64,000 nucleotides of DNA from Streptomyces sp. HUAS 15-9 (lineage in GTDB: Bacteria; Actinomycetota; Actinomycetes; Streptomycetales; Streptomycetaceae), in NCBI RefSeq assembly GCF_025642155.1, contig NZ_CP106799.1, positions 124,001 through 188,000 on the forward strand. Reading direction: 5' to 3'. The notes under the pieces were generated by a model that was not told the origin of the DNA, did no database searches, and worked only from the letters and a program-made list of their open reading frames with translations. Numbering within the stretch: position 1 is the stretch's first letter; every line of letters begins with the position of its first letter. Positions 14,406 through 61,898 of the stretch are shown piece by piece. A program made the translations under genes and the position numbers.

Positions 14406-15125
14406 TCAGCCGTGCAGGGCGCTACTCAACCGGTCGACCTGCTTCTCGACGAGGGCGAGAGGGAACTGCGCCTTGTCGCCCACGTTCAGCTTTTCGAAGT
14501 CGGCCGTGGTGTTGCCGACTCGGACGTAGACATGGTGCGCATCCCGCAGTCCGCCTCCGTCCGGCAACTGCGAAAGCTGGTGAAAACTCAGGGCCTCGTC
14601 ACCCACGTCGGGAGCCTTGTCCACGACAATCCTGGCATGGAACTTTCCAGTCCACCCGACCCCGGTGAAGGACCGGCAGGTCTCGAGTGAGTCCTGCAGT
14701 TGGCGGAACGCCCTCTGCGCCTTCCCGCCCTCGTACGAAGCGAGTGTGGAGCCGCCAGGCCAGATGTCCCTCTTCCAGTTGAAGATCTGGATCACGGCAG
14801 CAGAGGCGGTTTTGCCGCCGAGCACGTCGAGAGCCGTCTGGCACGAGGCGTCGGAGACCGGCGGGAAGGTTCGCTGCTCGCTCTTCGGAACAGGATCCTG
14901 TATCGGCACGCTGTGAGCCCGAGGCACCTCATTGGCCTTCAAGGCGAGAGCCTTCAGTTGCTCAGCCGTCAGCGGGGGGCTGGAGGTTCTTGACGGTATT
15001 GCCGTCGTCGGAGACGCCGATGTGCCGTTCCCCTCTACGGCCGAACAGCCGGACACGACGAGCACCCCGGCAGCTATCGCCGTGTTCACCGATATCCAGC
15101 GCTTCGTCAGCGCAGCCGCCGCCAT
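14406..15125 (-). CDS. Secreted lipoprotein, unknown function
   Basis: This 239-residue protein has a signal peptide with a lipobox (residues about 12-28, ending VVSGC), so Cys27 is the likely lipidated residue, followed by a Ser/Thr-rich linker. The mature part has paired Cys residues and a segment LASYEGGKAQRAFRQLQDSL like other Streptomyces PknH-sensor or DUF3558-type lipoproteins. ATG 15125 is chosen for the AGGGGG upstream; an in-frame ATG at 15143 lacks one. It is not obviously related to the biosynthetic genes. Confidence 0.7.
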   Translation of the reverse strand: MAAAALTKRWISVNTAIAAGVLVVSGCSAVEGNGTSASPTTAIPSRTSSPPLTAEQLKALALKANEVPRAHSVPIQDPVPKSEQRTFPPVSDASCQTALDVLGGKTASAAVIQIFNWKRDIWPGGSTLASYEGGKAQRAFRQLQDSLETCRSFTGVGWTGKFHARIVVDKAPDVGDEALSFHQLSQLPDGGGLRDAHHVYVRVGNTTADFEKLNVGDKAQFPLALVEKQVDRLSSALHG

Positions 15126-15163
15126 GAATGCCCCCTGGTCCATGCGTAAAAGACAGGCAGACG

Positions 15164-16498
15164 CTAGCCGCGGTCGCCGACGGGCGTCACATCCTTATCC
15201 CGTTTCATCTGCTCCCGGCCCCCCGGCACCGGCGCCGTGCCCGTCCGGCCGGCAAGCGCGGCGCGCATCGCCCTCCACGACCGGTTCCGTTTGAACGGCA
15301 TTTCGAAGATTTCCGCGAACAGCCACGCCCCCAGCACCGAGGCGGGCACGGCCAGCAGCACTGTGAAACAGAACGTCGGCAGGCCGGGTGCAACGACGTG
15401 CGGGGCCAGCTTCCGGACGACGAGCATGACGATCGGGAGATGGATGAGGTAGAGGCTGTAGGAGAAATTGCCGAGAGTGCGTACGGGCCGCGTGGCCAGG
15501 AGGCGGGTGAGGAAGGCGGGCCTGCCGGTGGCCACCGCCGCCAGGAGCATCGTCATGGCCGGTACGACGGCCAGGTCCAGCCAGAAGTAGTGGTCCACCG
15601 TCCAGGCCGATCCCTTGACGGCTACCAGTGCCAGAGCCGGCGTCGCGGTCAGCGCTGCGAGCCAGTGCCACGGCAGGCGCCGTACCCGCTCGGGCGCGGC
15701 GACGATTCCCGCGCCTACCAGGCCGGCGACGAACACCGGAGCGAGATCCGGGGTCAGCATGTTCATGCCCTCCGTCGGTGTCCCGTTCGCCGCCGTCAGG
15801 CCGTGGGCCACCACCAGGAGCGTCACACCCGCGACCAGGACCACCGCGCCCAGGCGGCGCCGGATCAGGAGGAGGAGCGGGAAGAGGAGGTAGAGCTCCG
15901 CCTCCACGCCTATCGACCAGAACGCGCCGTTCGGGGTGGGGGCCGTGACCATGTCCTGGAGTACGAGGCCGTACACCAGGAGTGTCTTCCCCGTCGGCGG
16001 GCCGTAGTGCGAGGCGGGCACCACCCACCAGGCGACCGCCAGGCTCAGCGCGAGTGCCGCCCAGTACGGCGGCAGGATCCGCCAGGCCCGTCTGCGCAGG
16101 AACGGGGCGACGCCGCCCAGTTGCCAGCCTCGGCGGGCCGGTGTGATGGCCAGGGAGAACCCGGACAGCACGAGGAAGAAGACGACGGCGATACGCCCGT
16201 ACATCAGCCAGCCGAGCCAGGAGGGGCCGGAGTTGTGGGGGAATCCCGGGAAGGTCAGCAGCCAGCAGTGGAACAGCACCACGTACAGTGCGGCCAGGCC
16301 GCGGAGTCCGTCGAGGCCCTCCACATGGCCGCGGTCGTGCACATGGCTGCGATCGTGCACTTCGTCCGTCCCGTCCCCTTGCCGCGCCCGGACGGCCAGG
16401 TCGATGTCACTACCGGTGTCAATGCCGATGCCGCTGCTGACGGGATGGTTCGATTGCAGTGAGATCGTTCGGCCCTTTCCCGCGTGAGATGACGCCAC
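15164..16498 (-). CDS. Acyltransferase-3 family membrane protein (OafA-like)
   Basis: The 444-residue integral membrane protein has about ten hydrophobic segments. The family signature GLDGLRGLAALYVVLFHCWL lies near residues 62-81, F-F-L-V-L-S-G-F near 106 and FWSIGVEAELYLLFP near 190. These proteins O-acylate sugars, peptidoglycan or small molecules, using the conserved His in the first helix and the SxxxE motif. The start is uncertain: GTG 16498 is the longest frame, and the first 60 residues are not conserved-looking. It could acylate a sugar moiety of the cluster product, but position alone is weak evidence. Confidence 0.8.
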   Translation of the reverse strand: MASSHAGKGRTISLQSNHPVSSGIGIDTGSDIDLAVRARQGDGTDEVHDRSHVHDRGHVEGLDGLRGLAALYVVLFHCWLLTFPGFPHNSGPSWLGWLMYGRIAVVFFLVLSGFSLAITPARRGWQLGGVAPFLRRRAWRILPPYWAALALSLAVAWWVVPASHYGPPTGKTLLVYGLVLQDMVTAPTPNGAFWSIGVEAELYLLFPLLLLIRRRLGAVVLVAGVTLLVVAHGLTAANGTPTEGMNMLTPDLAPVFVAGLVGAGIVAAPERVRRLPWHWLAALTATPALALVAVKGSAWTVDHYFWLDLAVVPAMTMLLAAVATGRPAFLTRLLATRPVRTLGNFSYSLYLIHLPIVMLVVRKLAPHVVAPGLPTFCFTVLLAVPASVLGAWLFAEIFEMPFKRNRSWRAMRAALAGRTGTAPVPGGREQMKRDKDVTPVGDRG

Positions 16499-30310: not shown

Positions 30311-32665
30311 TCACTTCTCCGTAGCGGGACGCAGGACGAGGCTGATGTGGGTGCCGCCGAGTGAGGAGCTGTTGATGAGCTGGGGCCCTTCGTCGACGCC
30401 GTGCTCCCAGCCGGTGACCGCGAGCAGGGCGGCCAACTGGGCGCCCGCGCCGATGGGTTCGCCGACGATCCGCTTGGGGGTGTGCACGGTGGCCCGGGTG
30501 GAGAGCCGGTCGGTGGCCAGCGCCTCGGGGGCGTCGGCCCGCTTCAGGCCGGCCGCGTTGGCCCAGATCCCGGTCAGTTCCGCGGCCGTGACCCCGGCGT
30601 GGTCGAGGGCCTGGCGCATGGCCCGCTCCACTCCCCCACCCTGCGGGTCCCAGCGGCCGACGCCCTGGGCGTCGGAGGCGGTGCCGTGCCCGGCGAACTC
30701 CGCCAGGATGCGCGCCCCGCGGGCCCGCGCGGTCGACTCGCGTTCGAGGACGAGGGTGATGCCCGCCTCGGCGAGGGTGTAGTCGCTGTCGTCGAACAGC
30801 GGCAGTCTGCGGTAGGCCTCCAGCACCCCCGGCGAGAGGTCCTCGACGGCGGGCACCAGCACGGCCTCCGCCCGGTGCTGCAGCAGCAGGTCGTGGGCGA
30901 CGGTCAGGGCGGAGGCCCCGGCCGCGTGCCCGGTGGTGACGGTCGACGTCGGGCCCTTGGCGCCGACGTTCATGGAGACCTGCCCGGCGGCGGCGTTGAA
31001 GACGGTGTTCGGGAAGATCGCCGGGCTGCCGTGGTCGGGGCAGCCGGCCAGGACCGGCAGCAGGAACTCCTCGATGCTGCGCATCGGGCCGAGTCCGGTG
31101 CCGAGGACCACGCCGACCCGCTCGTCGGCGGTGATCCCGGCATGCTCCAGCGCGCCGCGGCAGGTGGCCACGGCGAGCTGGCCGAGCCGGTCCATGCGGC
31201 GCCGCTCGCGCGGCGGGATCGCCTTCGGGTCGAAGTCGGCGCGGGCGACGTGCAGTCCGTCCTCGTCGGCGCCGAGGACCCGTCCGTCGCGCCAGGCCTG
31301 CCACAGCGCCTCGGCGCCCTCGCCGGCCGAGGTGACCGCCGCATACCCGGTGATCACGACCTTGTCGTCGGCGGGGTCGGCCGGCGCCTCCACGGGGGTG
31401 CGCTCCTGGCCGGGACGGCCGAAGGCGACGCACGCGTTGGCGCCGGCGAAGGCGAAGTTGTTCGACAGCGCCGTGTGCATGGCCAGCGGCCGCGCGGTGG
31501 GCACCGCGTCCAGGCCGCACTTGGGGTCCACCTCGGTGAAGTTGGCGGTGGGCGGCGCGATCTGCTCGACCAGCGCCTGCACGGTGACGATGGCCTCGAC
31601 CGCGCCGGCCGCCCCGAGCAGATGCCCGATCATGGACTTGGAGCTGCTCAGCGCGGTGTTCTCGGCGGCCTCGCCGAGCGCGGAGCGCACCGCGTTGCTC
31701 TCGGCCGAGTCGTTCTTCGGCGTGCCGGTGCCGTGGCCGTTGATGTAGGCCACGTCCTCGGGGTCGATGCCGGCCGACTCCAGCGCCGCGCGGATGGCGC
31801 GGGCCGCGCCCTCGCCCTTGGGGTGCGGGGCGGTGGCGTGGTAACCGTCGGCGGACAGGCCGTAGCCGAGGACCTCGGCGAGGATCGGGGCGCCCGCGGC
31901 GCGGGCCACCGACTCCTCGGCGAGGACCAGCATGCCGGCGCCCTCGCCGAGCGAGAGGCCGTCGCGGTCCCTGGAGTAGGGCGCGGCGGGCCTGGTCGAC
32001 AGCGACTGCAGGCTGGTGAACCCGGCGAACGCCGTCTCCGTGAACGCGTCGCTGCCGCCCACGAGCATGGCGTCGACGCGGCCCGCGCGGATGGACTCGC
32101 TGGCGTGGGCGATGGCGTGGGCGCCGGAGGCGCAGGCGGTGTTCACCGACAGCGAGGGGCCCTTGAGCCCGAAGGCACTGCTCACCGCCTCGGCGATGGC
32201 CTGCGGCGGGACCAGCAGATTGTGCCGCCCGTCGTCCTCGGGCGAGATGCCGTCGGCACCGCGCCGGGACAGTTTCTCGGCGCTGCGCAGTCCGCCCATG
32301 CAGGAGCCGAGGGCCACGCCCCAGCGCTCCGCGGGCACCTCGGCCAGGCCCGCCTGGTTCAGTGCCTCTTCGGCCGCCAGCAGGGCGAAGTCCACGGCGG
32401 GTTCGCGTTCGCGGCCGCCGAAGGAGGCCAGGTAGTCGTAGGCGGGACGGCGTTCGGTACGGACTTCGCCGCCGATCTCGGTGGCGCAGCCCTCCATGGG
32501 CAGTGCGCGCACCGGGGTGATGGCCGCCTCGCCCGACCGTATGCCCTCCCACAGTGCCGTGGCGCCGTCGCCGTGGGCGGTCACCGCGCCCACACCGCAG
32601 ACCACGACCCGCCGGGACCGAGCGCCGCGATCCGGCGAGGTGTTGCCGTGCTCGCCGTGGCTCAT
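30311..32665 (-). CDS. Fused ketosynthase-chain length factor (KS-CLF) in one protein
   Basis: At 784 residues it holds two complete KAS-fold halves. Half 1 (about residues 15-410) is a working KS: SVNTACASGAHAI carries the Cys, NGHGTGTPKND and SMIGHLLGAAGA the two His. Half 2 (about 430-780) is a CLF-like copy with the nucleophile position in TVTTGHAAGAS occupied by His and no matching His motifs. In most type II systems KS and CLF are separate, overlapping genes, so a continuous fusion is unusual. Start ATG 32665 is set by AAGGAG 7 bases upstream; the frame is open well beyond. It lies between the KAS III-like gene and the Cys-less KS gene. Confidence 0.9.
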   Translation of the reverse strand: MSHGEHGNTSPDRGARSRRVVVCGVGAVTAHGDGATALWEGIRSGEAAITPVRALPMEGCATEIGGEVRTERRPAYDYLASFGGREREPAVDFALLAAEEALNQAGLAEVPAERWGVALGSCMGGLRSAEKLSRRGADGISPEDDGRHNLLVPPQAIAEAVSSAFGLKGPSLSVNTACASGAHAIAHASESIRAGRVDAMLVGGSDAFTETAFAGFTSLQSLSTRPAAPYSRDRDGLSLGEGAGMLVLAEESVARAAGAPILAEVLGYGLSADGYHATAPHPKGEGAARAIRAALESAGIDPEDVAYINGHGTGTPKNDSAESNAVRSALGEAAENTALSSSKSMIGHLLGAAGAVEAIVTVQALVEQIAPPTANFTEVDPKCGLDAVPTARPLAMHTALSNNFAFAGANACVAFGRPGQERTPVEAPADPADDKVVITGYAAVTSAGEGAEALWQAWRDGRVLGADEDGLHVARADFDPKAIPPRERRRMDRLGQLAVATCRGALEHAGITADERVGVVLGTGLGPMRSIEEFLLPVLAGCPDHGSPAIFPNTVFNAAAGQVSMNVGAKGPTSTVTTGHAAGASALTVAHDLLLQHRAEAVLVPAVEDLSPGVLEAYRRLPLFDDSDYTLAEAGITLVLERESTARARGARILAEFAGHGTASDAQGVGRWDPQGGGVERAMRQALDHAGVTAAELTGIWANAAGLKRADAPEALATDRLSTRATVHTPKRIVGEPIGAGAQLAALLAVTGWEHGVDEGPQLINSSSLGGTHISLVLRPATEK

Positions 32666-32703
32666 GTCCGCGCTCCTTTCGGATGTGTCCTCGGATATGT
32701 CCG

Positions 32704-33993
32704 TCATGAGGTCCGCTCCATGGCGATGGCCACCGCCTGGCCCTCCAGGCCACGGGCGACGGCCAGCGCATGGCCGGGCCGGGTCTCGCGCGGGGTGAGC
32801 GGGACGTAGTCCAGGTCGCACTCCTCGGCGGGGTTGTGCAGGTTCAAGGTGGCGGGTACGACACCGGAGTCGAGGGTCAGCGCGGCCACGGCGGCGTTCA
32901 GCGCCCCGGCGCCGCCGACCAGATGCCCGGTCTGCGGCTTGACGCTGCTGATCTGCGCGGCCTTGGCGGCCGTACCGAGCGCGTCGTGCAGGGCGATGGT
33001 CTCGCTGGCGTCGCCCTGGCGGGTGGCGCAGCCGTGCGCGGCGATGTAGCTGCCGTCGGGGAAGGAGCCGCCCGCGTCGCCGAGCGCGCGGGTGATCGCC
33101 CTGGACAGCCCGCGGGCGCGGGGCTGCGGGCTGGGCGGGCGGACGCAGTCGTTGCCGGAGCCGAAGCCGGTGACCTCGGCGTAGCAGCGGGCGCCGCGGG
33201 CCAGGGCGTGCTCGCGCTCCTCCAGGATGAGGAAGGCCGCGCCCTCGCCGAAGACGGAGCCGCTGCGGTCGCGGTCGAACGGCCGGAAGGCCTCCTTGCC
33301 CAGGTCGCTGCGGTCGCTGAGCACGCCGATGCCGTCCATCTTGGACATCGCCCACCAGCCGGTGGCGTCGTCGTAGCCGCCGGCCACGACCACATCGGCC
33401 TCGCCGCGGCGCACCGTGCGCATGGCCCGGCCGACCGCCATCGCGCCGGAGTCGGCGGTGCCGGCGAAGTAGGCGTTGGCGCCGCGGATGCCGAACTTCT
33501 CGGAGATGTGGAAGCCGGCCGCGGGCTGCAGGCCCTCGACGAAGAACAGCGGGGCGATCACCGAGGAGGCGGTCTGCCCCAGCTTGTGCAGGTCGGGGGT
33601 GCCGTCCGGGGAGCGCACGGACTGGAGCTGGGAGATCAGCTCGTCCATGCGGGGCATTTCCTTGTTGCTGCCGAGGAACAGGCCCGTGCGGTGACCGAGG
33701 TCGCCCGCGTCCTCCAGGCCGGCGTCGCGCAGCGCCAGGACGGCCGCGGCCAGGGCCAGTTGGTCGCCGCGGCACAGCATGCGCAGGGTGCGCCGCTTCG
33801 CCCATTGGGTCGGGTCGAAGTCGTGGATCTCGGCGCCGATGCGGGTGTTCAGCGGTGCCGGGTCGTAGGACCGCAGCGGGCCGATGCCGATGCGGCCCTC
33901 GAGCAGGTTCTCCCAGGTCGGTGCGGCGCCCTGGCCGATCGCGGTCATCAGGCCGATGCCGGTCACCATCACGCGTCGCCTGTCGTGGCTCAT
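32704..33993 (-). CDS. KS-like protein lacking the active-site Cys (CLF-like partner)
   Basis: The 429-residue KAS I/II-type fold has the nucleophile region YFAGTADSGAMAVGRA, so Cys is replaced by Asp. Later His-containing motifs remain: AAHGCATRQGDASE and VKPQTGHLVGGAGA. It is most likely a chain-length-factor-type partner of the active KS encoded two genes upstream (34406-35683), with which it shares an overlapping gene chain. Its ATG at 33993 overlaps the stop of the FabZ-like dehydratase gene and has GGGAGGG upstream. Asp in this position is not the Gln usual in decarboxylating CLF or KSQ proteins, so I would not assume decarboxylase activity. Confidence 0.85.
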   Translation of the reverse strand: MSHDRRRVMVTGIGLMTAIGQGAAPTWENLLEGRIGIGPLRSYDPAPLNTRIGAEIHDFDPTQWAKRRTLRMLCRGDQLALAAAVLALRDAGLEDAGDLGHRTGLFLGSNKEMPRMDELISQLQSVRSPDGTPDLHKLGQTASSVIAPLFFVEGLQPAAGFHISEKFGIRGANAYFAGTADSGAMAVGRAMRTVRRGEADVVVAGGYDDATGWWAMSKMDGIGVLSDRSDLGKEAFRPFDRDRSGSVFGEGAAFLILEEREHALARGARCYAEVTGFGSGNDCVRPPSPQPRARGLSRAITRALGDAGGSFPDGSYIAAHGCATRQGDASETIALHDALGTAAKAAQISSVKPQTGHLVGGAGALNAAVAALTLDSGVVPATLNLHNPAEECDLDYVPLTPRETRPGHALAVARGLEGQAVAIAMERTS

Positions 33994-48467: not shown

Positions 48468-49289
48468 TCACGCCGCGAACAGATCGAACGTGGAGGTGTG
48501 CCGGGGGCCCGCCAGGACGTCCAGCTGCGGGTCGACGGCCAGCATGGCCTGGTGCAGCCGCTGCAGCTGGGGCGAGGGCTCGACCCCGAGCTCGTCGATC
48601 AGCCGCATCCGCAGCCTGCGGTAGACCTCCAGTGCCGAGGCCTGCCGCCCCGACCGGTACAGCGCCACCATGACCTGGGAGTGCAGGCCCTCGTGCTGGG
48701 GGTGGCGGGCGGTCAGTTCGGTGAGCTCGGCGATCAGTTCGGCGTGCCGTCCGAGCCTGAGCTCGGCGTCGATGCGCCGCTCCACGGTCACCAGCCGGCT
48801 CTCCTGCAGCCGCCGTACCTCGATGTCGAGGATCGGGCCGACCCGTACGTCCACGAGCGCCGGACCCCGCCACAGTTTGAGCGCGGCCCCGAAGCGGGCG
48901 GCGGAGACCTCGCTGTCGCCCACGTCGAAGGCCGACTGTCCCTCGCGGATCAGGCGCTCGTAGTCGTGCACGTCCACCGATTCCTCGGGAATCTGCAGCA
49001 GATAGCCACCGTGCCGGGTGGCGAGGACTTCCTTGGCGCGGCCGGGCGCGCCGGGCCCCATCGCGGTGCCCAGGCGCCTGCGCAGCTGGAGGATGTAGGT
49101 CTGCAGGGTGGTCAGCGCGCTCTGCGGCGGCCGGGTCGACCAGATCTCCTCCATGAGTGTGGGTACGGGCATCACACGGCCCGGATAGAGGGCAAGCAGT
49201 GCCAGAATCTGCCGCGGCTTGCTCGCGGACGGAACGATGGATCCCCCGTCGACCTCGGCACTCAACGGACCCAGAACCTGAATCCTCAC
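48468..49289 (-). CDS. SARP-family pathway activator (1)
   Basis: The 273-residue protein has the SARP layout: an N-terminal OmpR-like winged helix starting MRIQVLGPLSAEVDGGSIVP (residues 1-95) with SALTTLQTYILQLRRRL, then a bacterial transcriptional activator domain (DVHDYERLIREGQSAFDVGD onward). It ends ELGVEPSPQLQRLHQAML. SARPs bind heptamer direct repeats and recruit RNA polymerase. GTG 49289 follows GGAGGAG. It is the most divergent of the three SARPs here and lacks the upstream element shared by the other two. Its operon position upstream of the degenerate ligase suggests they are co-transcribed. Confidence 0.92.
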   Translation of the reverse strand: MRIQVLGPLSAEVDGGSIVPSASKPRQILALLALYPGRVMPVPTLMEEIWSTRPPQSALTTLQTYILQLRRRLGTAMGPGAPGRAKEVLATRHGGYLLQIPEESVDVHDYERLIREGQSAFDVGDSEVSAARFGAALKLWRGPALVDVRVGPILDIEVRRLQESRLVTVERRIDAELRLGRHAELIAELTELTARHPQHEGLHSQVMVALYRSGRQASALEVYRRLRMRLIDELGVEPSPQLQRLHQAMLAVDPQLDVLAGPRHTSTFDLFAA

Positions 49290-49749: not shown

Positions 49750-50577
49750 TTACGCGGCAGCGGCGTACGTGTCTCCTCCCACGGGCTCGGGCAGCAGGAA
49801 CCTCTGCGGCTCCGACCGGCTCCAGGGGAAGCCGTGGTTGAGGTGGACGACCGCCTCCTCGTTCCCGTCCGCGGGCACGGCCACGGCGACCAGCACACCG
49901 GACACCGGCTCCAGTTCGAGGAACCGCCAGGGGCGGCCGGTGTCGTCGGCGGGCGGGGTGAAGGCGCGTACCCCGCCCTCGTCGTCCAGGGTGAAGACGA
50001 AGCTGTCGAACGGGATGCCGAGGCCAAGGCCGCGCGCCTTGGAGTACGCCTCCTTCAGCACCCACACCCGCAGCGCGCGCCGGTCCCGCTCTGGCCCGGG
50101 GTCGGCCTCCCGTACCCAGTCGCGCTCCTGCGGCGAGATGGCGTTCACGATGGTGGCGATGGCGTTCTCGTCCCGTTCCGCGATCCGCTCGACGTCCACA
50201 CCGATACGGGCCTGGCGCACGATGCCCAGGAAGTTGTAGCCGCCCGCGTGGGAGAGGTTGAAGTCGAGCACCCGCCCGCCGCGCGAGGCAAGGTCGGAGG
50301 TGGGCCGCAGGAAGGGCCGCCCCCGTGCCGAGCGCCAGATGACCAGTTCCGCCTCCGCCAGACCCGCCTCCAGCGCCAGGGCGCGCCGTACGAGGGTGTG
50401 GGCGATCAGATACTGGAGACGGTCGCGCTCGAAGAGGAACTTCCCCGCGGTGCGCCGCTCCTGGGCGTCCAGCCAGTGCTCGGCGAGCAGCCGGGCGATG
50501 TCGGGGTTGAGCCCGTCGTTGGGACACAGCCACAGGGTGACCTGGGCCGGGTCCGTCTGCTGCTCGGCGGCCGTCAC
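49750..50577 (-). CDS. Sfp-type 4'-phosphopantetheinyl transferase (1)
   Basis: The 275-residue protein has RDRLQYLIAHTLVRRAL near residue 50, FNLSHAGGYNFLGI near 110 and IGVDVERIAERDENAI near 125, the magnesium-binding G-V-D-x-E. WVLKEAYSKARGLGLGIP follows near 175 (W-x-x-K-E-A-x-x-K). It transfers phosphopantetheine from CoA to carrier proteins, here most directly the tandem ACP encoded two genes upstream. GTG 50577 with GAGGAG overlaps the stop of the dead KS gene, so all three genes are coupled. A second, dissimilar Sfp-type enzyme lies at 58682. Confidence 0.93.
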   Translation of the reverse strand: MTAAEQQTDPAQVTLWLCPNDGLNPDIARLLAEHWLDAQERRTAGKFLFERDRLQYLIAHTLVRRALALEAGLAEAELVIWRSARGRPFLRPTSDLASRGGRVLDFNLSHAGGYNFLGIVRQARIGVDVERIAERDENAIATIVNAISPQERDWVREADPGPERDRRALRVWVLKEAYSKARGLGLGIPFDSFVFTLDDEGGVRAFTPPADDTGRPWRFLELEPVSGVLVAVAVPADGNEEAVVHLNHGFPWSRSEPQRFLLPEPVGGDTYAAAA

Positions 50578-52268
50578 GTCTGCGCTCCTCGGGGCAGTAC
50601 CGCGCTCGGGGGCAGTTCCGTCACCGGTCCCGCGAGGTGGGCGGGGGCCGCGCCCAGCACGTCGACACCGGCCAGCCACAGCCGGATCAGCTGCTCGAAG
50701 CGCCGGCCCTCCCACAGGGCGTCGACATAGGCGCGGGTCTCGGGAAGTCCGGCGAGCAGCAGCGGTTCGGCGGGCGGGTCCCGCAGATCCGCGCTGTGCA
50801 CCGGCGGTCCCTCCGGCGGGTCGTCCGGCGAGTCCTCGGGGCCGCCCCGTGCCGCGAACGCGGCCAGTGCGGTGGCGAGTTGGGAGGTGTCGTACACCAC
50901 CAGCGCCAGCCGGCACTCCAGCGCGGCCCGGCCCAGTTTGAGTTCGCGGGCCACGGCGGCCAGGGCGGGCACGCCGGGGCCGGTGAGGCGGTCGCGGCCG
51001 GTGAGCCAGGTGGCGAGTCGTTCGGCGGTGGCGGCCAGATGCCCGGGGGTGGCCGCCGACAGCAGCACCAGCTGCGGCCCGCCGTCGTCGTCCCCCGGTG
51101 CCCGCGCCACGGGCGACGAGTCCTGGTCCGAGTCCGGGTCCCGCTCGCGCAGCACCACGACCGCGTGCTGGGCGTCCGGCGCGTGTACGCCGACCAGGAC
51201 CGTACGCGGCAGGGTTCCCCCCTCGGGAACGCGCCCGGCCTCCCAGACGGCGGGCCGCGGCCGGCCCGGCCCCGGAAGCAGGGTGGCATGGCGCAGTTGG
51301 AGGACGGCGCGGGTCAGCGCGGTCGCCGCCGGCTGTCCCGCTCCCCCGGCCCCGGCACCGTACCCGTCCTCCTCGACCTGCACCTGCGCGGCCGGTGTCC
51401 CGGCGGCCCGCAGGGCCCGGCGCCGCAGCCGGTCGCGCAGCGCGGGGTGCGCACCACGCCCCGGATGCCCCACCGCGCTGGCCGGTACGACGGCGTGCAC
51501 GACGTCACCGGCGGCGCGCGCGGCGGCAAGCGGCTTCAGCAGTACGGCAGTCGTACCACCGGAGGGCATGCCACCGGCGGTCGTACCACCGGCGCCCGGC
51601 TCGGTGGCCGCGACGAGGGCCGCCGCGCACTCGCCGGCGCGCAGCGCGCCGAGGGCCAGGTGCAGGGCGGTGAGGAACGAGGAGGGACCGGTGTCGATGT
51701 CCTGACTCGGGCCGCGCAGATCCAGGATGCGCGAGAGGCGGGCGGCACCGGCGGCCGCGAACACCCCGACGCTGCGGCGCTCACCGTCCGGGCCGGTCAG
51801 CGCGTCGAGGCGGGCACCGGCGTACCCGGCGCCCTCCAGGACCTGCCGGGCGCCGGAGAGCAGCAGCCGCTCACGGAAGTCCATGCGCGCCGCCTCACCG
51901 GGGTCCACCCCGAACGGGTCGGGGCCGACGGCGTCCACGCCACCCGGGACACTCCCCCGCACGGCCGCGCCACGGGCCCGCAGTTCAGCCTCCCAGAAGG
52001 CATCCGGACCGTCGGCCCCCGGCCAGCACCCCTGGAGTCCGACAACGGCGCACCATCCGGCGCTCGGAGAGTCGGCGGGAGCGGCGGCGGAGGCGAGGGA
52101 CTCGGGCCGGACGGTCGGCGCGACGGCCACCAACGACGGCACCGCGGCCGATGGCACGGGCGGCACGGCAGGTGTGTCCCCCGCGCGCGCCAGCAACGCC
52201 AGCGCATGCCGCCGTTCCAGGGTGCCGTCCTTGAACCGTGTGAGTATCTCCCGGCTGTCCATGGGCAC
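50574..52268 (-). CDS. Modular-type ketosynthase-like protein with no catalytic residues (KS0)
   Basis: The 564-residue protein resembles a KS of a modular, trans-AT-like PKS. An N-terminal helix EILTRFKDGTLERRHALALL (residues 6-25) looks like a docking linker. The KS fold starts near residue 72 with WCAVVGLQGCWPGADGPDAF. The Cys motif reads DIDTGPSSFLTALHLALGAL (Cys to Pro). The V-E-A-H-G-T-G-T site reads V-E-E-D-G-Y-G-A, and the second His motif is gone. After it comes a post-KS linker (LLSAATPGHLAATAERLATW) and a short tail like those in trans-AT systems. Condensation is impossible, so scaffolding, substrate holding or ACP docking is more likely. The start is the GTG at 52268 (GGAG upstream), or the ATG 6 bases later. 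Confidence 0.8.
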   Translation of the reverse strand: MPMDSREILTRFKDGTLERRHALALLARAGDTPAVPPVPSAAVPSLVAVAPTVRPESLASAAAPADSPSAGWCAVVGLQGCWPGADGPDAFWEAELRARGAAVRGSVPGGVDAVGPDPFGVDPGEAARMDFRERLLLSGARQVLEGAGYAGARLDALTGPDGERRSVGVFAAAGAARLSRILDLRGPSQDIDTGPSSFLTALHLALGALRAGECAAALVAATEPGAGGTTAGGMPSGGTTAVLLKPLAAARAAGDVVHAVVPASAVGHPGRGAHPALRDRLRRRALRAAGTPAAQVQVEEDGYGAGAGGAGQPAATALTRAVLQLRHATLLPGPGRPRPAVWEAGRVPEGGTLPRTVLVGVHAPDAQHAVVVLRERDPDSDQDSSPVARAPGDDDGGPQLVLLSAATPGHLAATAERLATWLTGRDRLTGPGVPALAAVARELKLGRAALECRLALVVYDTSQLATALAAFAARGGPEDSPDDPPEGPPVHSADLRDPPAEPLLLAGLPETRAYVDALWEGRRFEQLIRLWLAGVDVLGAAPAHLAGPVTELPPSAVLPRGAQT

Positions 52269-52283
52269 GGAGCGCTCCGCGCC

Positions 52284-53081
52284 TCAGGCCGGCCGGGTGC
52301 CGAGCAGGGCGGCCGCCTCGTCGACGCTGAGCAGATCGTCGCGGACCGCGTCCAGCAACGCCTCCAGGTCGATCTGCGCGCCCGAGGCGCCCGAGGCGCC
52401 CGAAGCGGCTGACGCGGCTGACGCGGCTGACGCGGCGGCCTTCGGCGACCCCGACGGCACCACGTCCCCGGCCGCCGATCCACCCCCACCCGCACGCGAG
52501 TTGGCCGCGACATACGCCGCGACCGAGGCCAGGTCGGGGTGCTCGTACAGCAGCGCCGTGGGTTCGCGCAGCCCCCAGATCCGGTTGACGCCCTCCACGA
52601 ACTGCGCGGAGAGGATGGAGTCCAGGCCCAGCAGGACGAAGGGGGCATCCGCCTCGATGTCGTCCGGTGCGCAGCCGAGGATCCGGGCGAGCAGGCCGCG
52701 CAGTCGGCCGATGACGTCACCGTCGTGGTCCCCGGCCGCGACCGGTGCGGACACGGGTACGGCCGGGTCGGATGCGGGTACGGCCGGATCGGGTGCGGCA
52801 CCGCCGAGTTCGGCGGCCAGCCGGTCGGCCAGGGCCTTCGGCGTCGGGCACTGATACAGGACGTCCGGCGGCACCGAGGTGCCGAAGCGGGCGTTGAGCG
52901 CACCCATGAACCCCACGCTCAGCAGGGAGTCCAGCCCCAGCACCGCGAAGCTCTCCTCGGCGTCGACGGCCTGGGCCTCGACAGCCACGAAACCCGCCAG
53001 CAGCGCGGTGAGTTCGGCCAGCACGTCGGCGGCCGGCATCTGCGGGGCGGGGTGCCCCGGCGGGGGCGAGGCAGCGGTCAT
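52284..53081 (-). CDS. Tandem acyl carrier protein (two ACP domains)
   Basis: The 265-residue protein has ACP 1 around residues 20-95 (FAVLGLDSLLSVGFMGALNA) and ACP 2 around 125-195 (FVLLGLDSILSAQFVEGVNR). Both keep the phosphopantetheine Ser, in the modular style rather than type II style. An Ala/Ser/Gly-rich linker follows (9-bp DNA repeats near 52390-52435), and then a helical tail LEALLDAVRDDLLSVDEAAA that could dock to the N-terminal helix of the KS0 protein. ATG 53081 has GGAG upstream. Together with KS0 and the PPTase it forms a three-gene unit. Confidence 0.88.
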   Translation of the reverse strand: MTAASPPPGHPAPQMPAADVLAELTALLAGFVAVEAQAVDAEESFAVLGLDSLLSVGFMGALNARFGTSVPPDVLYQCPTPKALADRLAAELGGAAPDPAVPASDPAVPVSAPVAAGDHDGDVIGRLRGLLARILGCAPDDIEADAPFVLLGLDSILSAQFVEGVNRIWGLREPTALLYEHPDLASVAAYVAANSRAGGGGSAAGDVVPSGSPKAAASAASAASAASGASGASGAQIDLEALLDAVRDDLLSVDEAAALLGTRPA

Positions 53082-53223: not shown

Positions 53224-54048
53224 TCAGCCCACCGCCAGGACCGGCTCCTCCGGTACCTCGACGGCCGACGCCTGGATGGAGTGCTGCAGCCGCTGCAGCC
53301 GGGGCGACGGCTCCAGCCCCAGCTCCCGCACGAGCGTGGTGCGCAGCTGCCGGTAGACGTGCATCGACTCGCTGCGCCGGCCGGAGCGGGCGAGAGCCAC
53401 CATGAACTGCGCGTGCAGGTTCTCGTGGGTGCGGTAACGGCTGGTCAGAACGATGAGCTCGGCGAGCAGTTCGCGGTGCCGGCCCAGGTGCAGGTCGGCC
53501 TCGATGCGCTGGTCGAGCGCGCACAGCCGGCTCTCCTCCAGCCGCTTGGCCTCGCGCGCCAGCAGCGTGCCCTGCTGGACGTCGGCGAACGCCGGCCCGG
53601 TCCACAGGTTCAGCGCCTCGGTCAGCCGGGCGGAGGCGTCGGCGTAGGAGGCCGCGTCCATGGCCCGGTAGCCCTCGCCCGCGAGGGTCTCGAACCGGCG
53701 CACATCGCTGCTGCCGCCGTCGGCGGCGAGCAGATAGGCGCCGGGCAGGGTCACCAGGACGTCCTTGGCGCCGCGCGGGAGCCTGTCCCGCTCCCCCGGC
53801 TGCTCGGCGGCGAGGGCGAGCGCCCGGGCGATGTGGTCGCGCAGGTGCAGGACGTAGGTCTGCAGGGTGGTACGGGCGCTGCGCGGCGGTCGCCCCTCCC
53901 ACAGCTCCTCGACCAGGTCCGTGACGGGCACGGCGTGGTCGGCGTTGAGTGCGAGCAGGGCCAGCATCTGACGCTGTTTCGGCGCGGTGGGAGTGACCGG
54001 CACTCCGCCCTCCCGCACCGCCAGGGCCCCCAGTACGTCGATGTCCAA
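53224..54048 (-). CDS. SARP-family pathway activator (2)
   Basis: The 274-residue SARP begins MDIDVLGALAVREGGVPVTP at a TTG codon (54048, with AGGGAG upstream) and contains SARTTLQTYVLHLRDHIARA and ELGLEPSPRLQRLQHSIQAS. It is very similar in layout and sequence to SARP 3 at 62019, and both share an upstream 42-base element, so the two are recent paralogues. It should activate operons bearing heptamer direct repeats. It is co-directional with, and upstream of, the tandem-ACP unit, whose transcription it may control. Confidence 0.92.
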   Translation of the reverse strand: MDIDVLGALAVREGGVPVTPTAPKQRQMLALLALNADHAVPVTDLVEELWEGRPPRSARTTLQTYVLHLRDHIARALALAAEQPGERDRLPRGAKDVLVTLPGAYLLAADGGSSDVRRFETLAGEGYRAMDAASYADASARLTEALNLWTGPAFADVQQGTLLAREAKRLEESRLCALDQRIEADLHLGRHRELLAELIVLTSRYRTHENLHAQFMVALARSGRRSESMHVYRQLRTTLVRELGLEPSPRLQRLQHSIQASAVEVPEEPVLAVG

Positions 54049-56293: not shown

Positions 56294-58374
56294 TCACACG
56301 TCCCTGGCGCGCACCGACCGCAGCCCACGCGCCAGCGCCTGCGCGCTCGCCGTGGCGCCGCCCACCCCCGTCATCACCACGGCCACGGCCGAGCCCGGCT
56401 CGGCCGCACCGCGCCGGGCGATCTCGTAGGCCGCGCTGCCGCCCGGCCCGCAGCCGCCGAGGACGAGTCGGCGGTCGGGGGCGAGCATCTCGCGCAGCAC
56501 GGACACCGACACCTCCGCCGGTCCCTCCATGCGCAGGGCCACGATCCGTTCGGGTCCCTGGTGGTCACGGGCAAGGACCTCGTAGGCACCGGCCGGCACA
56601 CCCGGCACCCCGATCAGGCAGATGACGTCCGAGAGCGGTTCCCCGGGGCGCAGCACGGCCAGGGCGAGGCCGCGCGGCGCGGGCGAGCGCGGGGCCACCC
56701 GGGGCACGTCGGAGGTGCGCAGCGGCTCCAGCACCTGGGCGACGGTGCACCGCAGGTCCCGGTGGTCGGGCAGGGAGCGCAGCAGCTGCACGCACTGGGA
56801 CAGCGTCGCGGACGCGTCCCCGTCCGCCAGGCTCGCGCGGTCGTACAGACCGGTCAGCAGCAGCCCGCCCTCCGGGCTGTGCTGGGCGACGAGGGTGAAC
56901 GGCAGGCTCGTGTCACCACTGACGCTCTGCGGTACGTCCACCTGGACGCCCTGCTCCCGCAGTTCGGCGAGCAGCGCCTCCGGCAGTTCGGGCCGGCTGT
57001 CGAAGACGACGACCGTGTCGGTCAGGTCGGTGTCCTCGCCCCGGCCGCTCCAGGCGCGTACCCGGTCGGCGGGCACCCAGGCGTGCGCGATCAGGTCGAA
57101 CGCGGTGTCGCGCACCTCGTGCAGCAGCTCCGCCAGGGGCGCCGCCGGGTCGACGGTGACGGTCATCGGCAGCGCGTTGCCGAGCAGCCCGGGGATGCCC
57201 GCGGCGCCCTGCATCGGCACGTCCCGCCCGGACAGATGCACACCGAAGCTGACCGGCAGCGGCCCCTCGGCGCCCGCCGCCCGGTACAGCAGCAGCGCCC
57301 ACACCACATGCAGCGCGCTGCTCTCGCCGACGCCCCGCATGGCCGCCCAGGACCGCAGCCGCGCGGTCTGCGGGGGCCTGAGACGGCGTTGCAGCCGGCC
57401 GGGGCCGGTGTGCCCGGTGGGACTGCCGGGGCGGCCGGACCGGACGGCGACGCCGGGGCCGGCGCGGCCGCGGACCAGAACGCGCGTGCGGTGGTGGTGT
57501 CCTGACGAGCCAGCCAGCGGGCGTGGTCGCGGACGTCGGGCCGCCGTTCGCCGCCGGGCAGGGTGCCGCCGCTGACATAGGCCCGGAAGAACTCGCGCAG
57601 CAGGAGATGGACGCCGCGCTCGTCCAGCAGGGCGCGGTGGTAGGTCAGCAGCACCCGCACCGGCGCCCGTTCGGGCGGCAGCCGGTCCTGCGGCGACCAG
57701 TTCTGGGCGAACCAGTCCTGCACCGCCGGCCCCGGTGTCCCCTCCAGCAGGGTCACCCGCAGCAGGCCCGGCCGGTGCAGGTCGAAGCCGCGCGCCCGGT
57801 CCCGCTTGACAAGGTCGCCCCAGGTGACGGTGGAGTGCGCATGGTGGACGACCTCGATCCGGGCCCGGTCGTGCAGGACCAGACGCGGTGCGGCCGTCCA
57901 GTCGAACGACGCCCGCAGCACGGCCTCGCGCTCGACGAGCGACTGCCAGGCCGTGGCGAAGCGGGACGTGTCCAGCGGCCCGGACCAGTTCCAGAAGAGC
58001 TGCTCGACATGGCGGTCCGGCGACCCTGCCGCGGCCGCGAGGATCAGCTCGCGCTGGTGCCCCGTGGCCGGGACGATGCCCTCCACGCCGGGCAGCAGGG
58101 CCAGTACGTCGGCCAGCAGCTCGGCGGTGAGCGGCTCGTGTCCGCCGTCGCCCGGCGCGGCCGGGAGGAAGCTGAGGCTGTGCCGTTCGCCGTCGTCGTC
58201 GACGGTGACGGAGTACGCGCGGTGCCGTTCGGCGAGCCGGGCCGCCACGTTCTCGGCCTCCGCGGGGCCCAGCGGCCCGCACAGCTCCAGCACGACGGGG
58301 GACCTTGGCGCGGTGCCGCCCGGCTCGTGGACCACGGCGAGGACGGTGTCCTCGGAAAGGTGATGGCTGCTCAT
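56294..58374 (-). CDS. Condensation-domain protein with thioesterase-like tail, frameshifted
   Basis: From ATG 58374 the first frame gives about 325 residues of a free-standing condensation domain (HQRELILAAAAG, SLVEREAVLRASF, RVLLTYHRALLDERGVHLLL). The last segment is the H-x-x-x-D-x-x-G form of HHxxxDG, with Tyr in the first His position and the catalytic second His kept. The match ends near 57400. A -1 shift then continues the protein (RLRPPQTARLRSWAAMRG, ALHVVWALLLYRAAGA, LPMTVTVDPAAPLAELLHEV). The C-terminal part (VICLIGVPGVPAGAYEVL, VLGGCGPGGSAAYEIARRGA) looks like a thioesterase fold without the Ser. One missing base restores about 690 residues. It could form an amide or ester from a carrier-bound acyl chain. 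Confidence 0.7.
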
Positions 58375-58685
58375 CCGCTGTCCCGGGTACCGAAACCCGC
58401 CGCCGCGGCGAAGAGGACCGGCTCCCTGCCCCCCTTTTCGGCTCGTTCTCGCTCCTGTTCGGATCGTTTCTGCGCGATATGCGCCGACTGCTGCGGCGCA
58501 CTCGGTGCGCCCAGCGCACTCAGCGCATACGGCCCCGCCGGCCCGCGCGCCCCGCACGGCTCCAGCGGCACCCGCTCCCCGTACGGCACCGACCTCGTCG
58601 TCGGTCCCGTGGGAGGGCGTCCGCGCACCCCCGCCCGGGCCGCCCGCGGGGCGCGCCCGGACTCGGTGCCCACGTCGGTCCTCAT
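58371..58685 (-). CDS. Hypothetical 104-aa protein coupled to both neighbours
   Basis: ATG 58685 overlaps the stop of the PPTase gene and its own stop overlaps the ATG of the condensation gene (ATGA at both ends), which is hard to explain by chance. The product starts MRTDVGTESGRAPRAARAGV, is rich in Arg, Ala, Gly and Pro, and has a charged helix (AHIAQKRSEQERERAEK) near the end. It has no recognised domain. It may be a linker or coupling peptide that keeps translation going between the two larger genes. Confidence 0.5.
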   Translation of the reverse strand: MRTDVGTESGRAPRAARAGVRGRPPTGPTTRSVPYGERVPLEPCGARGPAGPYALSALGAPSAPQQSAHIAQKRSEQERERAEKGGREPVLFAAAAGFGTRDSG

Positions 58686-59581
58686 CGGTCGCCGGGTCTC
58701 CATCGCCCCGGAAAGCCCGGTACGCCCGCGGCCGGCGGACCGGCCTCGGCGAACTCCGCGGCGTCGTACGACGGGACCTGCCGGGCGGCCCGCGCCGGGC
58801 GGTGGGCGACGCTCACGAGGTAGCGTCCCTGGACGAGATGGGCGGCGAACACCCATGCACGGGCGCCCTCCGAGTCCTCCGCCAGGGTGATGCGCCCCTC
58901 GCCGTCGCGGCGGAACCCGAACGCGGCGAAGCGGCGCCGCATGCCCTGGCCGAGGGCCTTGGTGTAGGCCTCCTTCAGCGTCCACAGCTGCAGCAGCCTG
59001 AGGGTGCGCTCGGCCTCGGGCAGCGCGGCGAGCGCGGCCGCCTCCTCGGGCGTGCACACGTACTCGCCCAGCAGCTCGAACGGCGCCTGCCGGTCGGCCG
59101 GTTCGGCGTCCACCCCTATCGGGCCCGTGCCGCTGACACCGACCACGATCAGCTCGTCGGTGTGCGCGAGGCTCAGCTCGAGCTCCTCGCCGAGCCCGCG
59201 CAGATGGGGCCGTCCGCCGGGCTTGTAGGCGAGGTCGAGGGCGTCGGGGGGCACTTGGAGCACCGCCCCGGCCGTGTACTTCATGACCAGGCGGGAGACG
59301 GCGAAGCGCAGCCGCCCGGCGCTGGCGCGGGTCTGCCGGTAGCGCGGCCAGTCGTGGCCGAGCAGCGCGCGCAGCCGCGGGTCGAGCAGGGTCACGGTGA
59401 GCCACTCGCCCCAGGTCGTGTGCACCACGGCGACCCCGGTGGAATCGACCGCGTCGGACACCGGCTCCCAGGGCCCCTCGGGACCGGCGAGGTGCAGCGG
59501 CGACGGCAGGGGCGCTGTGACGTCCACCGGGCCGCTCACGGCCTGGTGCCCTTGTCCGGCGCGGTCCTCGGGCCCGTTCAC
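58682..59581 (-). CDS. Sfp-type 4'-phosphopantetheinyl transferase (2)
   Basis: This protein of about 299 residues has TRASAGRLRFAVSRLVMKYT near residue 85, SLAHTDELIVVGVSGTGPIG near 140 with V-D-A-E following, and LQLWTLKEAYTKALGQGMRR near 215. These are the metal-binding and W-x-x-K-E-A-x-x-K motifs of Sfp enzymes. It differs clearly from PPTase 1. The GTG at 59581 overlaps the stop of the dehydrogenase-like gene (GTGA); a further GTG is 3 bases upstream. Its likely targets are the type II ACP or the substrate carrier for the condensation protein. Confidence 0.88.
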   Translation of the reverse strand: MNGPEDRAGQGHQAVSGPVDVTAPLPSPLHLAGPEGPWEPVSDAVDSTGVAVVHTTWGEWLTVTLLDPRLRALLGHDWPRYRQTRASAGRLRFAVSRLVMKYTAGAVLQVPPDALDLAYKPGGRPHLRGLGEELELSLAHTDELIVVGVSGTGPIGVDAEPADRQAPFELLGEYVCTPEEAAALAALPEAERTLRLLQLWTLKEAYTKALGQGMRRRFAAFGFRRDGEGRITLAEDSEGARAWVFAAHLVQGRYLVSVAHRPARAARQVPSYDAAEFAEAGPPAAGVPGFPGRWRPGDR

Positions 59582-60936
59582 CACAGCGACTTCGTGGCGT
59601 ACACGTCGCAGTCGACGTCGCGTCGGCCGCGCTCGGCCAGCTCCGCCCAGACGTCGTCGCGCGGATCGGCGGGCACGGGCGGCCGTGGGACGCCGAGCCG
59701 TTCGGTGAGGCGGACGAGCGCGAGCAGGGCCCAGTCCGGGCTGCTGAGGAAGGTGGTGTGGTCGGCCGCCCGGCGGACGCCGAGCACGGCGGCGGCCAGC
59801 AGCACTTGGGCCTGGCGGTCCGCCAGCGCCCGCGCGGCGGGGTCCTCCGGGGAGGCGTCGGCGGCCTGCAGACAGGGCAGGCGCAGGGTGCGCCGCTCGG
59901 TGCGCAGCCGGCGGGCGGCGCGGGCGAGCGCGCCGTCCTCCCCTTCGGCAGGCCGGGCCGCCGCCGCGGTGGCCAGCGCGTCGGCCAGCACATGGTGGCA
60001 GCCGGTGCCCTCGGGCAGCAGGTCGGCCGGGACGGCGGCCGTGTCGCCGATCCTGAACAGCGCGGTGGCGTCCGCCTCGCCCGGCCCGTTCTCGGCGAGG
60101 TCGGGCAGTGCGGCGACGAGCCGGGCCAGGCAGGCGGCCGGGTCGGGCCACTGTCCGCCGGTGGCGAGGTCGGCCCGTAGCTTGGCGAGCGAGCGCTGTT
60201 CGAGGCTGCCGGGCGCGAACCCGCTTTCGTTCAGGACGAGTTCGAGGTCGTTGTGGACGTCGGCCATCAGCTGCGGGACGACGTATCCGACCGCGGCGGT
60301 GAGCAGGGCGGTGGCCTCGGCGGGCAGGACGAGGGAGCGCAGCGCCACGGTCGTCAGGCTCTCGCAGGCCAGCAGGTCGGCGAAGTCTCCGGCGAGCGTG
60401 CCGTGCCACTGCCGGGCGGCCGGTTCACGGCGGTCGACTTCGTCGACGATGCGGACCGCGGTGCGCAGCACGGTGCCCGTCGCCGCGATCAGCGCCACCG
60501 GCCCGAGCAGGGCGGCCAGTTCGGCCGGCCGGGCGGGCGCCGGGCGGGTGCTGTCGGCCGCGGCGAGCAGCGGGCGGGTGCCCCAGGCGTGGCCGAGGGC
60601 AAGGTCGCGGCGGAAGAGCGGGCGCAGCACTCGTACCAGCTGGTCGGCGCTGGTGTAGTGGCCGCCGGCCGCGCGGGGCCGGAACTCGGCGCGCAGGTCG
60701 GCGGGGGACGGCGGGCCCTCGGTGCCCTCCACGGCGCTCAGCGCGGGAAGGCCGTAGCGGTTGGCGGGATCGGCGGGGTCGCCGAGCTGTGCCTCCAGCC
60801 GTACGGCGCGCAGCGCCACCTCCACCGGCGGCGGCAGTTCGGCGTAGGCCGCCCTGCGCCGCTCGCGGGCCGGACGTGGCTCCGCGGTGGCGGTGTCGGT
60901 GTTCTCCCCGGTCGGAGCCGGTCGGGTGAGGGCCAT
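59578..60936 (-). CDS. Acyl-CoA-dehydrogenase-like protein of polyketide clusters
   Basis: The 452-residue protein shows acyl-CoA-dehydrogenase C-terminal-like helices: DFADLLACESLTTVALRSLV near residue 190 and AAVGYVVPQLMADVHNDLEL near 220. The usual N-terminal FAD and acyl-binding segments are weak. Similar proteins occur in type II PKS clusters as acyl-CoA dehydrogenase homologues. ATG 60936 is set by a perfect AGGAGG 6 bases upstream; an earlier in-frame ATG (60951) overlaps the aromatase stop. It may dehydrogenate or simply bind acyl thioesters. It is coupled on both sides to aromatase and PPTase genes. Confidence 0.55.
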   Translation of the reverse strand: MALTRPAPTGENTDTATAEPRPARERRRAAYAELPPPVEVALRAVRLEAQLGDPADPANRYGLPALSAVEGTEGPPSPADLRAEFRPRAAGGHYTSADQLVRVLRPLFRRDLALGHAWGTRPLLAAADSTRPAPARPAELAALLGPVALIAATGTVLRTAVRIVDEVDRREPAARQWHGTLAGDFADLLACESLTTVALRSLVLPAEATALLTAAVGYVVPQLMADVHNDLELVLNESGFAPGSLEQRSLAKLRADLATGGQWPDPAACLARLVAALPDLAENGPGEADATALFRIGDTAAVPADLLPEGTGCHHVLADALATAAAARPAEGEDGALARAARRLRTERRTLRLPCLQAADASPEDPAARALADRQAQVLLAAAVLGVRRAADHTTFLSSPDWALLALVRLTERLGVPRPPVPADPRDDVWAELAERGRRDVDCDVYATKSLW

Positions 60937-60947
60937 CGCGGGCCTCC

Positions 60948-61898
60948 TCATCGCAGACGGCGGACGGCGCTCTCCGCGTGCCACTTGGCCAGGCCCAGCG
61001 CTTCGGTGCTCGCGCGGCCCAGCCACTCGCGCACATACCGGCGGGCGTCCGCAAGGGTGGCTTCCTCGCCCAGGACCGGGGCCACGGCCTCTTCCCTGAG
61101 CAGAACGTGGTGGGTGCAGCCGACCCGCACCCCGGACTCTTCGGGCAGCAGGTACCACTCACCGGCGTGCGCCGCGATCAGTTCGGGCGTGACCGTCTCC
61201 TTGAAGACGATCCGCCCGGCGTGCGGGAAGCACAGGCGTACGGCCTCGACGGTGACGGTCTCACCGGTCTCCTCGGCACAGGTGTCCATGGCGGCGAGCT
61301 GCACGCCCGGCTGGTCCTCGGTGACGCTGGTCCACTCGACGTGCGGGACGGTCTCGGCCCAGTTCTCGATCCGGTAGAGGAAGTCGTAGACGAGCTCGAA
61401 GGGTCCGTCCACCAGCACGTTGTCCTCGAAGGACAGCAGCAGTTCGTCGAGTTTCTCCCAGTGCTCGGCCATCTCCCGGACCCCGTCCAGCTGGGCCCTG
61501 AGTTCGGCCTCGGGGTCGTGGGCGGTGGACCGGTAGGGGCCGGCCGGCGGCAGGTCGTGCCGCAGGGTGACCAGGGAGCTCGCGTCGTCCTGGGCCTGCA
61601 CGGTCCAGGCGCCGGTGGTGGGCGCGTCCGGCCAGAAGGTGTCCTGCTGCTCGAACTCGATGGACCGCGACTGCGGTTTGAGCACCCGTCGGGTGCGGGA
61701 GGACCGGACGTGGTCGGCCGTCACGTCCCACATGCGCAGGTGCTCGGTGACCCCGTCGAAGTCCATCCGCTCGACGTGGACGTGGGAGGAGAGGAACACC
61801 GGCCAGCGCACGGCGTCGGCGAGCATGCCGTAGACGACACCGGCGGGGGCGGCGACGGAGACGGTGTGCTGGGCCGAGTGCCCTCGTTCGGACGGCAT
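60948..61898 (-). CDS. Two-domain aromatase/cyclase (SRPBCC fold)
   Basis: The 316-residue length equals that of the didomain aromatases of reducing aromatic PKSs. Domain 1 (residues 10-150) has HTVSVAAPAGVVYGMLADAV and RWPVFLSSHVHVERMDFDGV. Domain 2 (165-310) has DGPFELVYDFLYRIENWAET followed by V-P-H-V-E-W, plus EYLR-type C-terminal helices. Such enzymes fold and dehydrate the first ring of C9-reduced aromatic polyketides. No aromatic minimal PKS is in the window, so either the cluster continues to the right or the protein cyclises another chain. ATG 61898. It is the first gene of a chain running to the condensation protein. Confidence 0.88.
   Translation of the reverse strand: MPSERGHSAQHTVSVAAPAGVVYGMLADAVRWPVFLSSHVHVERMDFDGVTEHLRMWDVTADHVRSSRTRRVLKPQSRSIEFEQQDTFWPDAPTTGAWTVQAQDDASSLVTLRHDLPPAGPYRSTAHDPEAELRAQLDGVREMAEHWEKLDELLLSFEDNVLVDGPFELVYDFLYRIENWAETVPHVEWTSVTEDQPGVQLAAMDTCAEETGETVTVEAVRLCFPHAGRIVFKETVTPELIAAHAGEWYLLPEESGVRVGCTHHVLLREEAVAPVLGEEATLADARRYVREWLGRASTEALGLAKWHAESAVRRLR

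Follow-up and report, generated by a model that had tools for sequence, protein, structure and literature searches.

A catalytically inactive ketosynthase and its carrier protein in Streptomyces: a cut-down VirA/VirFG-type junction that probably serves as a docking platform

What can a ketosynthase (KS) without catalytic residues contribute to a biosynthetic locus? This question is raised by three adjoining genes in a stretch of 64,000 nucleotides from Streptomyces sp. HUAS 15-9 (contig NZ_CP106799.1, positions 124,001 to 188,000; here called the window), which encode, in this order on the minus strand, a protein with two acyl carrier protein (ACP) domains, a KS-like protein, and a phosphopantetheinyl transferase (PPTase 1). 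The original prediction, made from the letters of the window, had described this trio as a stripped module inside a type II polyketide synthase (PKS) locus, i.e., a scaffold that could carry a polyene chain or hand it over to a condensation protein. The three parts are present where they had been placed (Table 1), and no acyltransferase (AT), ketoreductase (KR), or thioesterase (TE) is encoded within the three genes. Our analysis points to a cut-down subunit junction of a trans-AT PKS, in which the inactive KS probably serves as a platform for a neighboring carrier.

The KS-like protein belongs to a family that is not a chance resemblance, since 175 of 7995 scored candidates match it at E ≤ 0.001 and dozens of loci share its gene order. 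Pfam recognized ketoacyl-synt in two pieces and RhiE-like_linker, whereas Ketoacyl-synt_C was absent from the matches up to E 1; for the ACP protein and PPTase 1, it returned two PP-binding stretches and ACPS, respectively. The best solved relatives of the KS-like protein are trans-AT KSs, and by Pfam, structure model, and fold search the KS fold with the RhiE-like linker is retained, which agrees with the predicted trans-AT type; the Cys-His-His set of a trans-AT KS, however, is missing from the family. In the window, DTACSS has become DTGPSS, the HGTGT stretch is deleted, and NIGH is altered, so that all three catalytic residues are lost, as had been claimed. We extended this comparison to 162 rows (120 listed of the 175 proteins plus 42 loci, partly identical proteins), in which the Cys is never present and the first and the second His are found in two rows each. 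The Cys position is occupied by Asp (52 rows), Glu (41), Pro (28), Ala (21), Gly (6), Gln (6), or other residues (7), and one row is gapped there. Residues 180–222, the old Cys region, are the best conserved part of the protein (mean top-residue frequency 0.83).

The origin of the trio was revealed by its docking segments. The head of the KS-like protein (residues 3–39, in the numbering of the original prediction) matches the C-terminal half of PDB entry 2N5D (E 1.2e-7), and the tail of the ACP protein matches the N-terminal half (E 9.9e-6). According to PMC9113145, which also names the interface residues, 2N5D consists of the tethered C-terminal docking domain of VirA and N-terminal docking domain of VirFG from the virginiamycin PKS. 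Docking and linker segments are thus kept, and the "matching helical tail" of the original prediction is real, but it is a partner and not a copy, since tail and head match opposite halves of 2N5D. In Streptomyces sp. BR123 (L023; locus numbers are ours), tail and head are letter-identical to 2N5D. The two ACPs best match structures that PMC10006238 assigns to VirA, i.e., ACP5a (2MF4/8A7Z) for the first and ACP5b (4CA3/8AHQ) for the second. VirFG-like proteins contain two KS domains with intact motifs, and in a quick tree, built without type II KSs or chain length factors (CLFs), all 29 pseudo-KS rows fall into a single clade (SH-aLRT 100) within the group formed by the second KS of these proteins. 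PPTase 1 groups with three PPTases of streptogramin-type clusters, apart from a second PPTase of the wider gene block (PPTase 2; support 100). Head, core, tail, ACPs, and PPTase each match streptogramin-type parts and therefore point to one kind of parent. A hydroxymethylglutaryl-CoA synthase (HMGS) gene, as expected for a beta-branching tandem ACP system, was found in none of the 44 block loci within the fetched stretches, in contrast to nine of ten streptogramin-type loci, the tenth of which (L031) is a 7.9-kb contig.

Descent from a VirA/VirFG-type junction, accompanied by loss of catalysis, is therefore almost certain as far as sequence comparison can tell. The trio is a cut-down relative of this subunit junction in a trans-AT PKS of the streptogramin A type, with the ACP protein corresponding to the end of VirA (ACP5a, ACP5b, and the C-terminal docking helices) and the pseudo-KS to the N-terminal docking helices of VirFG joined to its second KS; the first KS and the KR between them are missing. 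Cys, HGTGT, and second His were lost subsequently, while fold and docking interface were retained. The original prediction knew of no described counterpart in polyene-type II systems and had overlooked this ancestral one.

We then asked how well the interface is conserved in the 40 loci that provide both partners. These counts, like those for the ACPs below, leave aside the minus-strand rows L066 and L071 and the window's own copy (L065), and the docking count has no usable head/tail pair for L014, L025, L037, L062, and L079. In the head of the pseudo-KS, Arg66/67 is present in 40 loci and Lys/Arg54 in 39, and Phe/Tyr60 and Lys/Arg61 are each present in 40 of 40 within the sets allowed by the search pattern. 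Leu57 is invariant in this pattern, and only limited sets of residues are allowed at positions 60 and 61; apart from L014 and the loci truncated by a contig end (L025 and L037), every block locus was recovered with it. In the ACP tail, an acid is found at position 31 in 39 loci, an acid or Asn at position 26 in 33, and an acid at position 17 in 30. The head numbering in PMC9113145 is one off from our chain index at most places. In the window, each facing terminus has two helices that match 2N5D (residues 3–11 and 17–27 in the predicted structure model of the pseudo-KS), and the interface residues and charges of a VirA-VirFG type docking pair are found, with the counts given, in the 40 loci. 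In the parent group these residues vary, since four of eight streptogramin-type heads (L029, L035, L040, and L063) carry Val at 60 and lack an Arg at 66/67. A search of the host genome yielded one clear place for the head (next best E 0.037) and one for the tail. The phosphopantetheine Ser is kept in the second ACP, next to the tail, in all 40 KS-bearing rows, while in the first ACP, Ser is found in 35 rows and Ala in one, and four rows lack this ACP altogether. The predicted tandem ACP thus holds for the window but is not universal. Judged by these residues, catalysis was abandoned, whereas the docking plug and the neighboring carrier were retained.

The original prediction had named a frameshifted or decayed KS in most relatives as the outcome that would speak against it, and this outcome did not occur. 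Of 38 loci, 35 encode docking head and KS core without a break in the frame; two of the others (L025 and L037) are truncated by a contig end, and only L014 is frameshifted. The same applies to all four loci added later (L086–L089). In L089 (region 13441–16461), the annotated KS gene begins at 14857, but its open frame already contains the docking head at 13441; the protein may thus considerably exceed its annotated length. In 72 pairs with 70–98.5% identity, the ratio of nonsynonymous to synonymous substitutions (dN/dS) did not exceed 0.553 (median 0.355), calculated according to Nei–Gojobori, which is rough in GC-rich genes. The loci are not independent and include near-copies (L018/L024/L070, L067/L072, and L020/L058). 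On the basis of open frames, dN/dS, and retained docking charges, a decayed copy was rejected. As no row has the Cys, yet fold and reading frame are kept, the protein can be regarded, on the basis of its sequence record, as an established pseudoenzyme.

The gene set is as stable as the protein. Among 24 loci with the dead KS in the genome collection, an adjoining ACP was found in 22 of 22 and a PPTase in 23 of 23 judgeable loci, in line with the predicted coupling and co-occurrence, and a Streptomyces antibiotic regulatory protein (SARP) lies nearby in 23 of 24 (exception L012). In a separate search, matches at E ≤ 1e-30 were obtained in at least six of 198 other genomes of the genus, with at most seven candidates scored per genome. 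Furthermore, we fetched 21 plasmid regions chosen from 80 listed matches, some via the ACP query, of which one is of the streptogramin type and 20 are block regions (L056–L062, L064, L072–L079, and L086–L089). The latter contain the KS (18 regions), ACP (20), PPTase 1 (19), SARP (19), a ScbR-family regulator (17), and ScbA (13). MOB-suite classified four of the 20 plasmids as mobilizable (L061, L062, L079, and L086) and the others as non-mobilizable. KS and PPTase genes overlap in all 17 plasmid regions that have both, by 4 nt in 14, as in the window, and by 11 nt in L056, L086, and L088; the ACP stop and the GTG start assigned to the KS in the original prediction are separated by 15 nt. ACP and KS share a frame in the window, but the idea of one split gene was dropped because the same frame occurs in only 16 of 40 pairs, about chance.

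The PKS company of the block varies. The fetched plasmid stretches span 14–20 kb, so PKS genes farther out would be missed; within them, aromatic type II genes are found in seven of 20 regions, a reducing type II PKS in five, a type I PKS in two (L057 and L075), and no type I PKS, KS-CLF, or reducing type II PKS in six (L059, L064, L073, L076, L077, and L079), among which L073 carries a KSIII and an adenylation megasynthase. The five regions with a reducing type II PKS (L056 and L086–L089) are those nearest to the window among the regions fetched, and L086–L089 are four of its ten near plasmid relatives. Among the 24 genome loci, a reducing type II PKS was found in L009, L010, L012, and L014. 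The proposed polyene link therefore holds for the nearest relatives and these genome loci, but not for the other 15 of 20 plasmid regions; a polyene-only role was rejected, and the trio is not tied to one PKS type.

We consider it probable that, within a block linked to regulators, the trio forms a docking platform that is non-catalytic and serves a way-station ACP. PPTase 1 would convert the ACP to its holo form, the ACP tail would clip onto the head of the pseudo-KS as a four-helix bundle, and the pseudo-KS, probably a dimer, would hold the ACP5b-like carrier, from which partner enzymes would collect an acyl group, or on which they would modify it, with no extension of the chain. The block, plasmid-borne or chromosomal, would provide SARP/ScbR regulators and often an acyl-CoA carboxylase, a condensation-like protein, and a second PPTase. 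A scaffold, as originally proposed, is the likeliest role of the dead KS, while the way-station role as such is more tentative and stays somewhat short of an even chance in our judgment. A broader scenario, which is possible but doubtful, is that the junction was excised, the KS became inert, and a butyrolactone/SARP block that occurs on many Streptomyces plasmids took up the platform, carrier, and PPTase; there, the three would plug into unrelated pathways and make or gauge a signal or supply an acyl group.

Several observations weigh against the docking platform. The charges at tail positions 17 and 26 are less conserved than the others, and in the read-through model the helices are confident but their packing is not readable, with 2N5D absent among the best 50 fold matches listed for it. 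In the same close pairs, PPTase dN/dS is 0.07–0.24 and that of the pseudo-KS 0.25–0.55, i.e., the KS is less constrained (the PPTase median over all its 254 pairs is 0.290). L061 lacks PPTase 1, and the KS gene is missing from two of 20 plasmid regions (L062 and L079), where it is dispensable, as ACP and PPTase remain. Both retain most of the docking tail, which may serve another partner there or reflect a recent KS loss; the tail shows only partial change in these two cases, and the idea that it decays once the KS is lost was dropped. Lastly, the link with a reducing type II PKS is steady among the window's nearest relatives.

Part of this evidence would suit a relic, i.e., a KS gene left over from a lost streptogramin A cluster and carried along by translational coupling to a useful PPTase gene. 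L062 and L079 lie within the PPTase 1 tree, so the KS was probably lost there, and the weaker constraint on the KS and the frameshift in L014 point in the same direction. Open frames in nearly all loci, dN/dS of at most 0.553, the kept docking charges, and the conserved old Cys region nevertheless make a relic unlikely. The same conserved region could be taken as a sign that the fold catalyzes another reaction with new residues, as SalC does with its KS fold, and SalC is indeed among the fold matches of the pseudo-KS, as are many KSs. As the residues at the Cys position vary, however, neither a new nucleophile nor Gln has become fixed, and with the HGTGT part deleted we regard a repurposed enzyme as very improbable. 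Closer to the docking platform, and overlapping with it because the platform leaves the product open, is the proposal that the trio makes or senses a signal of the SARP/ScbR circuit outside the antibiotic pathway. The high counts of SARP, ScbR-family regulator, and ScbA, the six plasmid regions without a PKS, and a further ScbA homolog (64% identity) beyond the window end on the same 249,478-base contig are consistent with it. No signal-making catalytic step was identified, though, a PKS may lie beyond the fetched stretch, and neighborhood alone is no proof of function, since SARP/ScbR-type regulators flank many Streptomyces clusters; we therefore rate this regulatory role as rather unlikely.

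The hand-over of a type II PKS polyene chain to the condensation protein, as envisaged in the original prediction, draws on the five nearest plasmid regions fetched, all of which combine the trio with a reducing type II PKS and a condensation gene. The four genome loci with a reducing PKS are less uniform, as the stretches of L009 and L012 gave no condensation match, and the same trio stands beside other PKS types or none in most plasmid regions. Moreover, the condensation gene of the window is frameshifted against the intact relatives L056, L010, and L013, be it real or an assembly error. Among 24 block relatives, the HH of the HHxxxDG motif is present in four (L021, L022, L058, and L061) and the whole motif in two of these, and the motif reads YHRALLDERG or YHQALLDERG in L010, L013, L056, and L086–L089. 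Frameshift and degenerate motif argue against a simple hand-over, which we thus consider quite improbable. Pfam found only Condensation in this protein, apart from one other weak family in L075; by eye, its end is TE-like, without a Pfam match.

Table 1. Position of the trio, its parts, and neighboring features in the window.
Feature	Position	Strand	Remark
KS-like protein (pseudo-KS)	50574..52262	minus	562 aa from ATG 52262; GTG start of the original prediction at 52268
N-terminal docking helices of pseudo-KS, residues 1–27	52182..52262	minus	matches C-terminal half of 2N5D
Codon at lost catalytic Cys	51684..51686	minus	Pro, residue 193
Remnant of HGTGT-to-NIGH stretch	51327..51377	minus	family median about 31 residues shorter than second KS of VirFG
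ACP protein: two ACPs and C-terminal docking tail	52284..53081	minus	alternative open-frame start GTG 53141
First ACP, ACP5a-like	52803..53027	minus	best match 2MF4/8A7Z
Second ACP, ACP5b-like	52500..52718	minus	best match 4CA3/8AHQ
C-terminal docking helices of ACP protein	52293..52388	minus	matches N-terminal half of 2N5D
PPTase 1, ACPS family	49750..50577	minus	GTG start overlapping KS stop (GTGA)
SARP-type regulator, one side of trio	48468..49289	minus	BTAD domain (Pfam)
SARP-type regulator, other side of trio	53224..54048	minus	BTAD domain (Pfam)
Condensation-domain gene of wider block	56297..58350	minus	frameshifted at about 57427–57475
PPTase 2 of wider block	58682..59620	minus	other clade than PPTase 1; start not settled

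For the pseudo-KS, the ATG listed in Table 1 is the most likely start, judged from the MDxREIL start of the family. Regarding the surroundings, the host genome has a total of nine ACPS-family places. In many blocks, PPTase 2 and an SRPBCC protein flank a conserved protein of about 450 aa (59578–60960, minus strand), for which neither the window frame nor the L056 copy gave a Pfam match. An 813-aa frame (30311–32752, minus strand) comprises two ketoacyl-synthase units and has the appearance of KS and CLF fused within a type II system; it corresponds to a single gene of about 2.4 kb in L056 and L086–L089. An open reading frame at 4579–5787 (minus strand) resembles, by eye, a TnpB/OrfB transposon protein. 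In L076 (18650–29524), the block lies directly beside a mycofactocin-type cluster on the plasmid.

A description of the trio was not found in the open-licence literature searched; PMC12093942 deals with an unrelated case, a type I PKS whose loading KS is dead. In the trio, a piece of a modular PKS has clearly become a conserved pseudoenzyme for which parent junction, partner, and kept interface can all be identified. It offers a natural test of what KSs do apart from catalysis and points to a carrier unit found repeatedly in regulator-linked blocks.

Classical KS0 domains of trans-AT PKSs keep the Cys, lack the His, do not elongate, and can transacylate. The pseudo-KS shares with them a KS fold without chain extension but has the Cys in none of its rows, and a KS lacking even the Cys is further from activity than a classical KS0, which corrects the label KS0 given originally. 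KSQ and CLF have Gln for Cys, which applies to only six of the 162 rows. Like the KS-beta or CLF of type II PKSs, the pseudo-KS is a dead KS homolog; unlike these, it has docking helices, a RhiE-like linker, and trans-AT KSs as best solved relatives, a comparison in which the tree included no type II KS or CLF. The regulatory block of pSGRIFU1 (L062), which we take to resemble that of pSLA2-L, shows the same arrangement of SARP, ScbR, tandem ACP, PPTase, SARP, and condensation gene, but differs from the window in that it has no KS gene and carries Thr for Ser in the second ACP. Closest of all is the VirA/VirFG junction of the virginiamycin M trans-AT PKS, with both docking halves, the same ACP types, and the second KS of VirFG as nearest KS; in contrast to it, the trio comprises the junction only, its blocks lack HMGS, and its KS is catalytically dead.

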